DNA from: Vicinamibacterales bacterium
GTDB taxonomy: Bacteria; Acidobacteriota; Vicinamibacteria; Vicinamibacterales; SCN-69-37
Direction of reading: 5' to 3'
Assembly: GCA_030827135.1 (NCBI GenBank)
Contig: JAURFE010000001.1
Span: forward strand, 338,569-402,568
DNA length: 64,000 bases
Below are positions 19,004 to 61,404 of the stretch, piece by piece (within the stretch, counting starts at the first letter, position 1; every line of letters begins with the position of its first letter). A program made the position numbers and the translations under genes. The notes beneath the pieces were generated by a model, which was not told the DNA's origin, did no database searches, and worked only from the letters and a program-made list of their open reading frames with translations.

Positions 19004-19169
19004 AGCCAAGCCTCTTGTCGAGCGATTGTAAGATGCCACATGCCGATCACGCCGCACCGATTTGTGCGAATCGCCGCACTGGGGCTCGCCGTGATGGCCG
19101 GCGACGCGCCGTGATCGCGGGGGTGGTTCTGGGCCTGTCGGCTGCGCTGAAGCCGCAGGTCTGTGGGCG

Positions 19170-20081
19170 TTAGTGCAGCCGGAATTCCATCTGGATGATC
19201 ACGACCATGGGCACGGCCTGCCCCTGGTAGCGCGCCGGACGGAATAGCCACTGACGGGCCACGCGCATCGCCTCTTCATCGAGGCCGAACCCGCGGTCCA
19301 GCGACTTGTGAATCCGCACCTCGGTGATCTGTCCGTTCACCCCGACGACGGCTTCGAGTTCGACGATGCCCTGGATCTTCGCGCGCATGGCTTCCGGGGT
19401 GTATTTCGGATCCACCTGCTTGATGACGACCGGGTTGTCGGCCCCAGACCCCGGACGGAACGCACCGCCTCCAAAGCCTCCACCCGTGCCGGGCCCGATG
19501 CCGGAACCGGTGCCGGATCCGGACCCGGTGCCGCGGCCCGTGCCGCCGCCACCGCCGGTGCCGGTCCCCAGTGACGGCGCGGCGGACAGCCCGGAGACGA
19601 CACCTGAGGTCACCGGCAACGTCGCGTCGGTGCGAATGGGAGCCAGCAGGGGTGCGGGAGGCGGCGGCGGGATATCAACCTTCGGCACCTCGATTTTCGG
19701 CGCCTCAGGCACGACCGCCTTCATTTCCAGCCTGGCCGGCGGCGCCACCGATTCATTGCCGCCCCCACCGCCACCGCCGCCGGGGCCTTCCACCCGCACA
19801 AACGTCAGCTCGTACTTCTCGATGGGCGTGACCTCAGGGGGTGGAGCGGGTGGCCGCCAGGCCAGGACAAGAGCAATCAGCAGGACGGCCCCGCCATGGA
19901 GGCCCAGCGAGGCGGACATCGCCCGGCCCATTTTGCGTTGATCGGCGTGAGAAAACTCGGACGTGGCCGCCAGCCAGCCCTGGGCCACAACACCAGGCGC
20001 ACCGGCAGCCGCGCCTGCTCCGCCCGCAGGCGTCGAAGGCGTCGCAGGGGCCGGCCCGGGGAATTCAGGGTTCTGGCTCAT
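19170..20081 (-). CDS. TonB-like energy transducer / periplasmic spanning protein
   Basis: A 303-residue TonB-family protein. A cytoplasmic Ala/Gly/Pro-rich N-terminus leads to one membrane helix (LGLHGGAVLLIALVLAW), then Pro-rich (PKIEVPKVDIPPPPPAP) and long Gly/Thr/Ser-rich spacers suited to cross the periplasm, and a C-terminal TonB domain: DPKYTPEAMRAKIQGIVELEAVVGVNGQITEVRIHKSL, with the final RPARYQGQAVPMVVIIQMEF. Such proteins couple proton motive force to outer-membrane receptors. The ATG at 20081 is chosen because the 18 codons before it look non-coding. No exbB/exbD or receptor is adjacent. Confidence 0.85.
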   Translation of the reverse strand: MSQNPEFPGPAPATPSTPAGGAGAAAGAPGVVAQGWLAATSEFSHADQRKMGRAMSASLGLHGGAVLLIALVLAWRPPAPPPEVTPIEKYELTFVRVEGPGGGGGGGGNESVAPPARLEMKAVVPEAPKIEVPKVDIPPPPPAPLLAPIRTDATLPVTSGVVSGLSAAPSLGTGTGGGGGTGRGTGSGSGTGSGIGPGTGGGFGGGAFRPGSGADNPVVIKQVDPKYTPEAMRAKIQGIVELEAVVGVNGQITEVRIHKSLDRGFGLDEEAMRVARQWLFRPARYQGQAVPMVVIIQMEFRLH

Positions 20082-22301: not shown

Positions 22302-24566
22302 TCAGCGCTTCTTCCGGCGCGCCGCCTTCTTGAAGGCCCGCTCCCTGGGACCAGCCCGCTTGGCGCCTTTTCGCCTGGGCGGGGGGGCCTGGCTGCGGCG
22401 CGGACCGCGGTGCTTTTCCGATCGCGCGACCGCCTCGAGGATTGCGGTCAATCCCAGATCCACCAGACGACGTTCCAGGTCGACGCGAATCACCTGTACC
22501 GACACCTTGTCGCCGAGCCGGAAGATGCGGCCGTGTTTTTCACCCTTCAGCAGGTGGGCCTTTTCCAGGAACCGGTAATAGTCATCGGCCATCGTCGACA
22601 CATGGACCATGCCCTCGACAAAATGTTCGACCAGTTCGATGTGCAGCCCGAACGCACTCACGCCGGTGACGAACCCGGTGAACTCATCGCCGACCTTGTC
22701 GGCCATGAAGCGCACTTTCTTCCACTGTACGAGTTCGCGCTCCGCGTCGTTCGCGCGGCGCTCGCGTTCGGAGGTATGGCGCCCCATCTCCGGCAGGTCC
22801 TCCTGCAATTCGGCGAGCCGTTCATCGTCCAGGCCGCCACGCGAGGCCCGCAGCGACCGATGCACCACGAGATCCGGATAGCGGCGAATCGGTGACGTGA
22901 AGTGGGCATAGTGCCGCGTCGCCAGACCGAAGTGGCCGATCGGCGTCTCCTCGTACCGGGCCTTCTGCATCGTGCGCAGCATCAGCATCGCGATGGGCTT
23001 TTCTTCTGGGGTCCCACGGATCTTCTCCACGAGCCGCTGGAAATGGCGCGGCTCCAGCCGATCGGACGGACCGGACAACGAATAACCGAGCGCGCCGATG
23101 AAGGTTTCGAATTCCTCGACCTTCATCGGATCGGGGTCTTCATGTACTCGATACAACGTCGGTGTGCCGTGATCTTCGAGATGTTCCGCTACCGTTTCAT
23201 TGGCCAGCAGCATGAACTCCTCGATCAGGCGATGCGCGATGTTCCGCTGCGCCGCGACGATCGCCTCAATCATCCCGTCGTCACCGATCAGGATTTCGGA
23301 TTCCTTCAGATCAAAGTCGACCGACCCGCGGCGACGCCGGCGCTGGTTGAGAATCTCAAAGAGATCCTTCATGCGCTCGAAGAGCGGTACAAGCGCTGCG
23401 TACTGCTTCCGCAGCACGGGATCCCTGTCGGTGAGGATCTGATTCACCTGCGTGTACGTCATGCGGGCGTGGCTGTGAATCACGCCGTCGTGCATCTCGT
23501 GCCGCCGCACCATGCCGGTGCGGCGATCCACTTCCATCAGACACGACTGCACAAGCCGATCCACGTGGGGATTGAGACTGCACAGGCCGGTGGACAGTTC
23601 CGACGGAAACATGTGCACCGCGCGCTCCGGAAAATACACGGACGTACTGCGCTCGTAGGCCTCGCGATCCAGCGCCGTGCCTTCGCGCACGTAGTGCGAC
23701 ACGTCGGCGATGTGCACGGCGAGCCAGTAATTGCCGTTCGGCAATTCGTCGAGCGAAATCGCGTCGTCGAAGTCCCTCGCGTGTTCGCCGTCGATGGTGA
23801 CGGTGGGCCACTTCCGGAAGTCCGTGCGGCCTTCCCGATCACGCGGCTTCACGCTGGTGCCGAGTTTGAGGGCTTCGGCGACGGCCTCGTCGGAGTGTGT
23901 GTCCTGGATGTTGTATTTGCGAATGATGACGGCGGTATCGACGCCAGGCGCATTGATGTCGCCCAGCACCTCGAAGACCCGGCCTTGCGCCGGACGTGTC
24001 TGCGTCGGCCACGTCGTGATGGCCAGCGTGACCATCTCGCCGGGTTTGGCGCCCATCGATTCCCCGGGTGGCACCTCGACGTCCATCACCAGGCGCCGAT
24101 CAAACGGCACCACAAATCCCCGCCCCTGTTCCGACACGTCGTAGCGGCCGACGATGGAGGAGGTACCGCGCTCGAGGATCCGAATGATGCGGCCTTCGGC
24201 ACGGTCGCCGTCGCGTGTGCGCTCCACACGCACGACTACCCGATCGCCGTGGACTGCCTGATTGAGATGGACCCCGGGAATAAAGATGCTCGTCGGGCCG
24301 TCGTCCGACGGGCGTTCGGCTTCCACGAAGCCGAAGCCTCGGGGGTTGGTGGTGACGCGGCCCACCACCAGGTTCATGCGATCCGGCAGACCGAACCGTT
24401 CGCCTCGAATTTCAATCAGCTCGCCGGCATCGACCAATTTTTTGAGGACACGCTTGAAGGTGGCGCGCGACTCGCGCGGAATTTTCAGGGCTTGCAGCAG
24501 TTCCTTGGCGGTGGCCGGATGGTCCACCCGGTCGCGGATTTTCTGCAGAATTTCTTCGGCGGTCAT
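22302..24566 (-). CDS. rnr: Ribonuclease R
   Basis: A 754-residue 3'-5' exoribonuclease (RNB family) that degrades structured RNA. The order is an N-terminal winged-helix domain (TAKELLQALKIPRESRATFKRVLKKLVDAGEL), cold-shock domains (GRVTTNPRGFGFVEAE), the RNB catalytic domain with DGEHARDFDDAISL, where the metal-binding Asp cluster lies, and FTSPIRRYPDLVVHR, then an S1 domain (VGDEFTGFVTGVSAFGLHIELVEHFVEGMVHVS) and a Lys/Arg-rich tail. The ATG at 24566 is preferred over a TTG 24 bases upstream. It is divergent from an ECF sigma gene and precedes selB by 5 bases. Confidence 0.95.
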   Translation of the reverse strand: MTAEEILQKIRDRVDHPATAKELLQALKIPRESRATFKRVLKKLVDAGELIEIRGERFGLPDRMNLVVGRVTTNPRGFGFVEAERPSDDGPTSIFIPGVHLNQAVHGDRVVVRVERTRDGDRAEGRIIRILERGTSSIVGRYDVSEQGRGFVVPFDRRLVMDVEVPPGESMGAKPGEMVTLAITTWPTQTRPAQGRVFEVLGDINAPGVDTAVIIRKYNIQDTHSDEAVAEALKLGTSVKPRDREGRTDFRKWPTVTIDGEHARDFDDAISLDELPNGNYWLAVHIADVSHYVREGTALDREAYERSTSVYFPERAVHMFPSELSTGLCSLNPHVDRLVQSCLMEVDRRTGMVRRHEMHDGVIHSHARMTYTQVNQILTDRDPVLRKQYAALVPLFERMKDLFEILNQRRRRRGSVDFDLKESEILIGDDGMIEAIVAAQRNIAHRLIEEFMLLANETVAEHLEDHGTPTLYRVHEDPDPMKVEEFETFIGALGYSLSGPSDRLEPRHFQRLVEKIRGTPEEKPIAMLMLRTMQKARYEETPIGHFGLATRHYAHFTSPIRRYPDLVVHRSLRASRGGLDDERLAELQEDLPEMGRHTSERERRANDAERELVQWKKVRFMADKVGDEFTGFVTGVSAFGLHIELVEHFVEGMVHVSTMADDYYRFLEKAHLLKGEKHGRIFRLGDKVSVQVIRVDLERRLVDLGLTAILEAVARSEKHRGPRRSQAPPPRRKGAKRAGPRERAFKKAARRKKR

Positions 24567-24619
24567 GTCCTGAGTGTACTTCCGACCCAACCAAGGCCCG
24601 GCGGCGAAGGTCTACATCC

Positions 24620-25237
24620 GTGGTGACGACCGCTGCTGCCGTGTTGGACATAACTGCCGCCTCCCCGCTTGTTGGCGATACGCCCCAAGTGCAGGCATGG
24701 GTGCGGGCGGCGAAGGCCGGGGACCGCGCCGCATTCGACGCACTGGTCGGCCTGTATTACCGCTCGGTTTACCGGACCGCGATGGCAGCCCTCCAGCGGT
24801 CGGAAGATGCCGACGACGCGACCCAGGACGCCTTCGTGCTGGCCTGGCGGAAGGTCGCCGGCTTTCGGGGTGACTCCAGTTTCAAGACCTGGCTGCTGAC
24901 GATTGTCTGGCGTCAGGCGCTCGATCGTCGAAAACGCCGTGACCGCTGGTGGCGCCGGCAGCACCTCCCCGCCGGCTCTGGAGATGGGGCGGTGGAGGAT
25001 GGGGTCGACACCCTGGTCACCACGGAGGCCGACCCGGAACGCCTCGCCTCGGGACGCGCGCAGTTGGCGCAGGTGCAGGCCGCCATTGCGGCACTGACGC
25101 CCAAACTGCGCGACACCCTGATCCTCGCCTCGTCGGGCGACCACTCCTACGACGACATTGCCGTGATGTTGAACGTGCCCATCGGTACCGTGAAGTGGCG
25201 CGTGGCTGAAGCCCGGAGATTGCTCAAATGTCGATGA
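24620..25237 (+). CDS. ECF-type RNA polymerase sigma factor
   Basis: A 205-residue sigma-70 family factor with only regions 2 and 4. Region 2 is ALVGLYYRSVYRTAMAALQRSEDADDATQDAFVLAWRKVAGFRGDSSFKTWLLTI, and region 4 is IAALTPKLRDTLILASSGDHSYDDIAVMLNVPIGTVKWRVAEARRLLK, joined by a linker. It starts with GTG at 24620. The stop overlaps the next gene, whose product has one membrane helix, as is usual for a sigma/anti-sigma pair. The signal and regulon cannot be read from sequence. Confidence 0.9.
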   Translation: MVTTAAAVLDITAASPLVGDTPQVQAWVRAAKAGDRAAFDALVGLYYRSVYRTAMAALQRSEDADDATQDAFVLAWRKVAGFRGDSSFKTWLLTIVWRQALDRRKRRDRWWRRQHLPAGSGDGAVEDGVDTLVTTEADPERLASGRAQLAQVQAAIAALTPKLRDTLILASSGDHSYDDIAVMLNVPIGTVKWRVAEARRLLKCR

Positions 25238-25722
25238 CACACGACGACGTCACCCGTGCGGCCCGCACGATGATCGACGTTGAACCACCGCAGGATCTGG
25301 AAGCGCGCATCAGGCTGAGGCTTGATTCGGTCACGCCTGTTGCGAGTGCGCGCCGGTGGCCGTGGGTTGCCGGATTGGCCACGGCGGCGACCGTGACGCT
25401 GACGTTGATCGTCATGCTGTCTCGGAGTTCCGAGGTTCCGGAGTTTCGAGGTTCCGCAGTGCCGGAGTTCCGCAGCGCCGGAGTTCAGGAGTCCAGAAGT
25501 CCAGAGGTCCAGAAGTTCAGGGGTCCGGTCGTCTCCGCGCCGGTTCGGCTGCCGGCGTACCGAACGATATCCGCGTCGGAGTTGGAGTGGATGGCGCGCA
25601 GGGTGCCGGCGCTTGATCTCATCGATCCCATCCAACCAGAACCAGTGTGGATCGCTCCACTCACCATGGCCCCGCTCATGACCTCGCCGATGCACGGCGA
25701 TATTGACGAGGGGCGGCAGTAA
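25228..25722 (+). CDS. Membrane-anchored protein, putative anti-sigma factor, with embedded 8-residue repeats
   Basis: A 164-residue protein coupled to the sigma gene: the stop of sigma lies inside its first codons, and an alternative ATG at 25234 would give a 4-base ATGA overlap. The N-terminal 45 residues are cytoplasmic and charged; one helix follows (WVAGLATAATVTLTLIVML). Immediately after it comes a low-complexity block, residues 65-99, with 8-residue periodicity (SSEVPEFRG, SAVPEFRS, AGVQESRS, PEVQKFRG), which is the translation of an 8-nt tandem array. The last 55 residues look normal (ISASELEWMARRVPALDLIDP). No zinc-binding anti-sigma motif is seen, so the anti-sigma role is inferred from position and topology only. 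Confidence 0.65.
   Translation: MSMTHDDVTRAARTMIDVEPPQDLEARIRLRLDSVTPVASARRWPWVAGLATAATVTLTLIVMLSRSSEVPEFRGSAVPEFRSAGVQESRSPEVQKFRGPVVSAPVRLPAYRTISASELEWMARRVPALDLIDPIQPEPVWIAPLTMAPLMTSPMHGDIDEGRQ
25420..25523 (+). repeat. 13-unit 8-nt tandem array inside a coding sequence
   Basis: Thirteen contiguous 8-mers without any indel: TCTCGGAG, TTCCGAGG, TTCCGGAG, TTTCGAGG, TTCCGCAG, TGCCGGAG, TTCCGCAG, CGCCGGAG, TTCAGGAG, TCCAGAAG, TCCAGAGG, TCCAGAAG, TTCAGGGG. Since 24 is the common multiple of 8 and 3, the reading frame stays open and repeats every 8 residues. The units match the intergenic arrays elsewhere in the window. Confidence 0.92.
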
Positions 25723-25741: not shown

Positions 25742-26320
25742 ATGCGTAGACTGATTCTCGTACTTGGTTTCGTCGTTTCCACCGGCGCGTTCGCGGTACC
25801 GGCTCTGGCGCAGACCGCCGGGGCGACCGCGCCTTCGGTGCCGCGGATCGTCAACGCGTTGCCGCCCGCGCAGGGACAGACGGCCCCGGCGGCCCCACAG
25901 CCGCAGAACCGGCTCCCGAACCTGCCGACGCTGCCCAATACGACAAACATCCAGCTGGATTTGACGATCACCGACACGCTGAGCGGCAATCCGAGCACCA
26001 AGACCGTCTCGATGGTGATCCTGAACGGCAGCAACGGCATGATCCGCACGTCGCAGCCTGGCTACGATCACGTGCTCAATGTGGACGCGATGGCGACCGC
26101 GTATCAGAACGGCATGATTGGTGTGCGGCTGAGCTTTGAGTTCACGCCGCCCGGCCCGGCAGCCGTCGAGGGTCGCCCGAACACCCGCGCGCCGAGGCTC
26201 AACGAATCCCTGACCGTGGTTGTGCTCGACGGCAAGCCACTGGTCGTCTCACAGTCCGCCGACGCCGCCTCGAACCGCACGGTCACGGCGTCGATTACAG
26301 CCAAGGTACTGAAGTTCTGA
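25742..26320 (+). CDS. Exported protein of unknown function
   Basis: A 192-residue protein preceded by a good ribosome site (AAGGAG about 6 bases before ATG 25742). It has a signal peptide ending near VPALAQTA, a Pro/Gln/Ala-rich segment (about residues 25-60), and a beta-rich domain (NIQLDLTITDTLSG, SKTVSMVILNGSNGMIR-like strands, VGVRLSFEFTPP-like, LNESLTVVVLDGKPLVVSQSAD, RTVTASITAKVLKF). It follows the sigma and putative anti-sigma genes by 19 bases, so it may be a product of the same transcript and a target or sensor of that system. I do not recognise the family. Confidence 0.7.
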   Translation: MRRLILVLGFVVSTGAFAVPALAQTAGATAPSVPRIVNALPPAQGQTAPAAPQPQNRLPNLPTLPNTTNIQLDLTITDTLSGNPSTKTVSMVILNGSNGMIRTSQPGYDHVLNVDAMATAYQNGMIGVRLSFEFTPPGPAAVEGRPNTRAPRLNESLTVVVLDGKPLVVSQSADAASNRTVTASITAKVLKF

Positions 26321-26325
26321 GTCGC

Positions 26326-26355
26326 TGGCCCGCTTCAAACCAGCGGGCCCTACTT
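26326..26355. repeat. REP-like palindrome
   Basis: GGCCCGCT (26327-26334), a 7-base loop, then AGCGGGCC (26342-26349), followed by CTACTTC. The 8-base stem is perfect. Sequence and architecture resemble the tandem palindromes at 47423-47493. It may also stop transcription of the exported-protein gene, but it has no T-run. Confidence 0.6.
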
Positions 26356-26400
26356 CGGCACTTCGGAACCTCGGAACTTCGGACCTACGGCCCTTCGGTG
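26353..26400. repeat. 8-nt-period array (6 units), overlapping a stop codon
   Basis: Six contiguous 8-mers in the complementary orientation: CTTCGGCA, CTTCGGAA, CCTCGGAA, CTTCGGAC, CTACGGCC, CTTCGGTG. The stop (TAG, 26387-26385) and last codons of the minus-strand gene lie within it. Confidence 0.85.
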
Positions 26401-26783: not shown

Positions 26784-26792
26784 TCAGTTCAG

Positions 26793-26827
26793 AACCGATG
26801 AACCATGAACCGATGGACCATGAACCC
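26793..26827. repeat. Short tandem repeat, 15-nt unit (2+ copies)
   Basis: Two 15-base units (26793-26807 and 26808-26822) that differ at one base, built from AACCGATG and AACCATG halves, and a partial third. It fills the gap between two small minus-strand genes. The period (15, or 8+7) differs from the 8-nt arrays. Confidence 0.7.
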
Positions 26828-35041: not shown

Positions 35042-35047
35042 CGCGAA

Positions 35048-35087
35048 CTCCGGAACTCCGGAACTCCGGAACTTCGATACTCCGGTA
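35048..35087. repeat. 8-nt-period array (5 units) upstream of ispH
   Basis: CTCCGGAA three times, then CTTCGATA and CTCCGGTA, contiguous and without indels, between the anti-sigma stop and the ispH start. It is the complementary orientation of the array at 25420. Confidence 0.9.
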
Positions 35088-61322: not shown

Positions 61323-61364
61323 GGGACGCTCCGCTCGACATCATATACGGACTGCGCCCCGGGG

Positions 61365-61396
61365 TTCCGAAGTGCCGGAGTGCCGAAGTTCCGAAG

Positions 61397-61404
<8 letters not shown>
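61365..61404. repeat. 8-nt-period array (5 units) running into the tRNA-Leu 3' end
   Basis: TTCCGAAG, TGCCGGAG, TGCCGAAG, TTCCGAAG, TGCCGGGG, contiguous with no indel. The last unit begins at 61397, exactly the 3' end of the minus-strand tRNA, whose acceptor stem supplies TGCCGGGG. Confidence 0.85.

Follow-up and report, generated by a model that had tools for sequence, protein, structure and literature searches.

An in-frame octamer array in a putative anti-sigma gene is probably a tolerated copy from a dispersed repeat population

Results

An octamer array lies in frame in a putative anti-sigma gene

The window is the whole stretch of DNA that was analysed, 64,000 nt from a Vicinamibacterales genome (G000). 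It contains a three-gene module in which an ECF sigma factor gene is followed by genes for a single-pass membrane protein and a secreted protein (Table 1). The start of the membrane-protein ORF overlaps the stop of the sigma gene, and a homologue of the third gene is also found downstream in G003, G006, G008 and G011. The 164-aa membrane protein has no match in Pfam, and its match to the NCBIfam antisigma family (E=0.002) is far below cutoff. The name anti-sigma therefore comes from position and topology, and the protein is treated here as the putative anti-sigma of the adjacent sigma factor. An HxxxCxxC-type motif was sought in the translation and is absent. The protein contains no cysteine at all and is therefore not a zinc-binding anti-sigma (ZAS). 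A CxxC-type motif (HLDGCPAC) is present in distant members of the class beside related sigma factors, for example at L077.

Table 1. Genes and arrays of the module and related arrays elsewhere in the window
Feature	Position in window	Strand	Remarks
Ribonuclease R, divergent upstream neighbour	22302..24590	-	Synteny anchor
ECF sigma factor (Sigma70 r2 + r4_2)	24620..25237	+	PF04542 1e-15, PF08281 7e-10
Membrane-protein gene, 164 aa, single-pass, putative zinc-less anti-sigma	25228..25722	+	Array encodes residues about 66-99
Array, 13 degenerate octamers	25424..25527	+	Consensus about G-G/A-A/G-G-T-T/C-C-C/A
Secreted protein of no recognised family, signal-peptide-like N-terminus	25742..26320	+	Third gene of module
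Array of the same class, reverse	26352..26398	-	After third gene; absent there in G004
Array of the same class (GAACTCCG)	35045..35085	-	Intergenic; G004 interval has GCGGACT heptamers instead
Array of the same class (CCGAAGTG)	61359..61401	+	Intergenic

Within the membrane-protein ORF, 13 consecutive octamers run in frame and without an indel. Units 1 to 7 read GGAGTTCC GAGGTTCC GGAGTTTC GAGGTTCC GCAGTGCC GGAGTTCC GCAGCGCC, and units 8 to 13 read GGAGTTCA GGAGTCCA GAAGTCCA GAGGTCCA GAAGTTCA GGGGTCCG. The GGAGTTCC type makes up the 5' half and the GAAGTCCA type the 3' half. TRF reports the array as four overlapping rows, with periods 8 and 16, spanning 25423-25526. A unit-by-unit reading bears out the 13 uninterrupted octamers of the original prediction, which had placed them at 25420-25523, about 4 bases too early at either end. 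Self-identity is 0.70 at period 8, compared to 0.33 at period 7 and 0.30 at period 9. The units are imperfect. G is fixed at two of the eight positions, T or C is near-fixed at two more, and the longest exact period-8 tract is 16 bp.

The array follows a predicted membrane helix (residues 46-67), and its peptide repeats as SSEVPEFRG/SAVPEFRS/AGVQESRS/PEVQKFRG with the reading frame open throughout, both as first described. An 8-bp unit is not a whole number of codons, so each of the three frames gives an 8-residue repeat of the same type. In a structure model, residues 66-98 have pLDDT below 50 and lie between helices at 46-67 and 116-125; the model was built from a shallow alignment of 5 sequences (pTM 0.17), and the low pLDDT may partly reflect that shallowness. 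The model is consistent with a disordered spacer ahead of the conserved C-terminal segment. Folding of the array is modest on both strands (z about -2.6), and RNA structure within the gene was rejected as its explanation.

The array belongs to a genome-wide population

Elsewhere in the 3.24-Mb assembly, 38 places match the DNA of this array. We took a census of degenerate arrays in a 460-kb sample of the genome, using home-made gene calls. About 54 arrays of period 7 or 8 were found, and none in order-3 Markov shuffles. These two periods stand far above all others, harmonics excepted. By site, 40 arrays are intergenic, 11 are genic and 3 straddle a boundary, while coding calls cover about 91% of the sample. 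The intergenic excess, 40 of 51 classed arrays, is strong (p=6e-33). The main unit class, GTTCCGGA/GTCCAGGG-like and made of G[TG][TC]C-based octamers, accounts for 28 of 53 arrays, and a second, CAATGGGG/ATTGAGG-like, for 13 of 53. Units of the main octamer class do not each carry a G-tract of three, unlike the G-tract heptamers that can form a G-quadruplex. An intergenic GAACCGAT-type array of mixed period 7/8 and 15 also lies in the window, at 26792-26826.

Each array could have grown locally, a chance duplication being extended by polymerase slippage, with the loci unconnected. Unit length varies between genomes (7, 8 or 10), and local expansion is typical of slippage. Yet the units are common to distant loci far beyond what a period-preserving control yields. 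Among arrays more than 2 kb apart, 137 pairs share units above threshold, compared to 5-10 in eight sets in which unit positions were permuted consistently, keeping period, composition and imperfection. Independent slippage at each locus is thus insufficient; the sharing calls either for some form of copying or for selection on a common motif. We consider a purely local origin quite improbable. As the sole cause, independent slippage is strongly disfavoured by the permutation test and was rejected, although unit numbers may still change locally in this way.

Several loci carry inverted array pairs with long arms. Long hairpins of octamer or heptamer arrays are seen at L057 and L060 (G000:C11:976823-977052 and 1020389-1020579), one of them with 39-nt arms that are 97% complementary. 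Such pairs raise the possibility that the arrays are regulatory elements at the nucleic-acid level, acting as hairpins, possibly at transcript 3' ends, with genic copies as spill-over. The median distance of 17.5 nt from an array to a gene 3' end, versus 47 nt to a 5' end, points the same way, but this preference is not significant in the sample (p=0.18). Arrays also vanish or switch unit between sister species, and the one in the 164-aa gene folds only modestly on either strand. A primarily regulatory nature is therefore unlikely.

Candidates for the spread of the units were also examined. A reverse transcriptase was rejected, since G000 (completeness 100) has no PF00078 match. Spread by a RAYT, as in REP/RAYT systems, was rejected as well. 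No array of this class lies within about 3 kb of either Y1_Tnp gene of G000, and some array-bearing genomes lack the family, with no PF01797 match in G020 and G058.

Other conserved genes contain arrays in frame

The putative anti-sigma gene is not alone in carrying an array. In-frame arrays occur in the linker of a DEAD-box RNA helicase, in RdgB, in GluQRS, in a PabB-type protein (two arrays, one in each part) and between regions 2 and 4 of another ECF sigma factor. A CtaA-like protein, a MutS-like protein and a cytochrome c, named by sequence features and matching no family, probably carry them too. At least one genic case, at 976946, sits in a doubtful ORF among the home-made gene calls. 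All three sense frames are open in 9 of 11 genic arrays, compared to 48 of 80 strands of intergenic arrays; the difference is in the direction that a stop-free filter on genic arrays would give, and not significant (p=0.20).

A genic array need not be an insertion. The GluQRS array region has no net extra length relative to solved relatives, so some arrays may have overwritten a loop rather than lengthened it. In the two genic arrays compared between G000 and its nearest relative, length differs with the frame kept: by 9 nt in the RdgB loop, and by 45 nt in the helicase linker, where the unit subtype also changes.

The helicase linker peptide TEVPESRGSDVPKFRGAEGPKFRG (VPKFRG) is near-identical to that of the anti-sigma linker, and the frame is open along the whole array. 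One could thus suppose that the 8-residue repeat has been selected as protein, as a functional periplasmic repeat domain such as a ligand- or wall-binding segment. However, the helicase is a cytoplasmic protein, which makes a shared periplasmic role implausible. Moreover, a peptide of this type results from all three frames, the structure model leaves the linker unfolded, and its sequence differs among congeners. We regard a selected repeat domain as very unlikely.

The arrays change rapidly between relatives

The named relatives recovered are MAGs, mostly labelled Acidobacteria or Vicinamibacteria. The public record VFZF01000009.1 (L071) shows synteny with this acidobacterial lineage but carries the label Acidimicrobiia, which looks mistaken. 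The nearest relative compared, G004, shares 84.7% DNA identity across 140 kb of synteny. Among the intergenic or boundary arrays open to comparison, it keeps the unit of those at 227257, 236600, 247554 and 254086, and that of 217233 minus one octamer. The arrays at 213254, 246523, 278061 and 364920 are absent from it, and those at 216199 and 373613 are replaced by a different unit.

We surveyed GTYC-core patterns at periods 8 and 10 over 119 genomes of the class. The preferred period and unit vary between genomes. G000 has 117 at period 8 versus 0 at period 10; decamers are favoured in G045, G094 and G128, and other octamers in G015, G058, G093 and G105. Decamer arrays of GGTTCTGAAA and GGTTCGAGAA were seen in G094 and G045 (L195-L202, L218), and at several loci two arrays of opposite orientation meet end to end. 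Sampling of G016 and G028, each a single contig, gave 10-11 similar period-7 arrays per 100 kb, which rules out assembly artefact as their source.

At the anti-sigma linker itself, the original prediction had held that an insertion was tolerated, to be checked by whether orthologs lack the block or carry other unit numbers. The comparison supports this, in that the number and kind of units vary at the same spot. G005 has about 5 octamers, G006 has 5 heptamers of a related GTCCAGR unit, and G003 has a vestige, while no recognisable array is found in the linker in members of other genera. In G004 the membrane-protein gene is missing altogether, through a deletion that fuses the sigma gene, at about residue 115, with the end of the third gene (L061, G004:C9, around 19100-19450). 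Because the nearest relative has lost the gene, there is no high-identity ortholog with an empty site. In G006 the sigma gene is split over two frames, which may reflect a pseudogene or a sequence error, and G001 has only distant paralogs. On these grounds, the sigma/anti-sigma module looks dispensable in this genus.

A phase-variable switch is not favoured

It had been proposed that the array may act as a phase-variable switch of the sigma/anti-sigma pair, in which octamers gained or lost by slipped-strand mispairing would flip the downstream frame. The premise about frame holds in silico. Loss or gain of one or two octamers truncates the 164-aa protein before or within its conserved C-terminus, and three units restore it. 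Unit number at the linker also differs between species. Slippage-prone tracts, however, require perfect repeats. The array does not contain several perfect tandem units of the phase-variable kind, and with so short an exact tract a fast switch is unlikely. Comparable genic arrays, in RdgB and the helicase, vary between species by multiples of three bases. The population is mostly intergenic, and arrays are present across housekeeping genes as well. In congeners, ordinary deletions or frameshifts have removed or damaged the module, the gene being gone altogether from the sister species G004. The evidence thus speaks against the switch, to which we give hardly any credence.

Discussion

We favour, with good though not full confidence, the reading that a dispersed repeat population has intruded into this gene in frame and been tolerated, the octamer block serving as a length-flexible spacer rather than a fast on/off switch. 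The population consists of short degenerate arrays of 7-8 bp units, mainly between genes, with some inverted pairs able to form long hairpins. One copy would have arisen or landed in the codons just past the membrane helix of the putative anti-sigma. The lack of stop codons in all its sense frames, and its place in a disordered spacer ahead of the conserved C-terminal segment, would explain why it was tolerated. Selection would then retain an array only if its overall length puts the downstream sequence back in frame, and the array would work as a spacer of flexible length. Both the neutrality of the spacer and the history by which the array was acquired are what we infer from these comparisons.

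More tentatively, species-specific families of degenerate 7-10 bp arrays in this acidobacterial order may spread by an undescribed process without a reverse transcriptase or a flanking Y1 transposase, repeatedly seeding in-frame peptide spacers in conserved genes. This broader proposal is possible rather than probable. The arrays change fast, use a genome-specific unit and occur in frame in conserved proteins, which makes them a tractable case for the origin of new disordered protein segments. They also raise the question of what carries a single short unit to so many places in a genome.

Several known systems invite comparison. Classical phase-variation simple sequence repeats resemble the array in that an ORF contains tandem units, and a change in their number could shift the frame. 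Those repeats depend on perfect units, whereas neighbouring units here are 70% identical. According to a recent survey (PMC12699852), short tandem repeats are on average not enriched in bacterial genomes. Since the arrays described here are degenerate, a perfect-repeat scan would probably miss many. Our literature search on octanucleotide or acidobacterial arrays found nothing direct.

Short tandem families spread over a genome and mainly intergenic, like those here, are known from the heptanucleotide repeats of the cyanobacterium Calothrix (cited in PMC4692102) and the TAACTGA repeats of Beggiatoaceae (PMC4679880). TAACTGA sets differ in lying directly upstream of start codons, in few copies and with one fixed unit. 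The closest described population is that of the GGGAATC heptamers of Xanthomonas and their GGGGA(T/C)T counterpart in Nostoc, with about 186 arrays per genome, 89% intergenic, heterogeneous and of no known function (PMC4692102). As there, many similar arrays occur per genome, and they are dispersed, degenerate and predominantly intergenic near ORFs, form some inverted pairs and vary strongly in length and sequence between close species. The present population, by contrast, belongs to another phylum and uses units of 7-8 bp in several classes, or of 10 bp in related genomes. Its most frequent class is no G-tract repeat, and copies lying in frame within conserved genes have been documented. A GGGAATC heptamer array with a unit identical to that of Xanthomonas was observed at G000:C11:873909-873980 (L052).

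Rickettsia palindromic elements (Ogata et al., summarised in PMC10969869) are dispersed repeats that lie in frame within unrelated conserved genes and add a peptide, and the array family here is likewise in frame in several unrelated conserved genes. Those elements are palindromes of about 150 bp in conserved sequence families, whereas the present arrays vary in length and consist of degenerate octamers or heptamers in tandem; the anti-sigma copy is a 104-bp direct array with modest folding. The present case combines dispersal of the Xanthomonas/Nostoc type with coding intrusion of the Rickettsia type, in a different unit and a different phylum.
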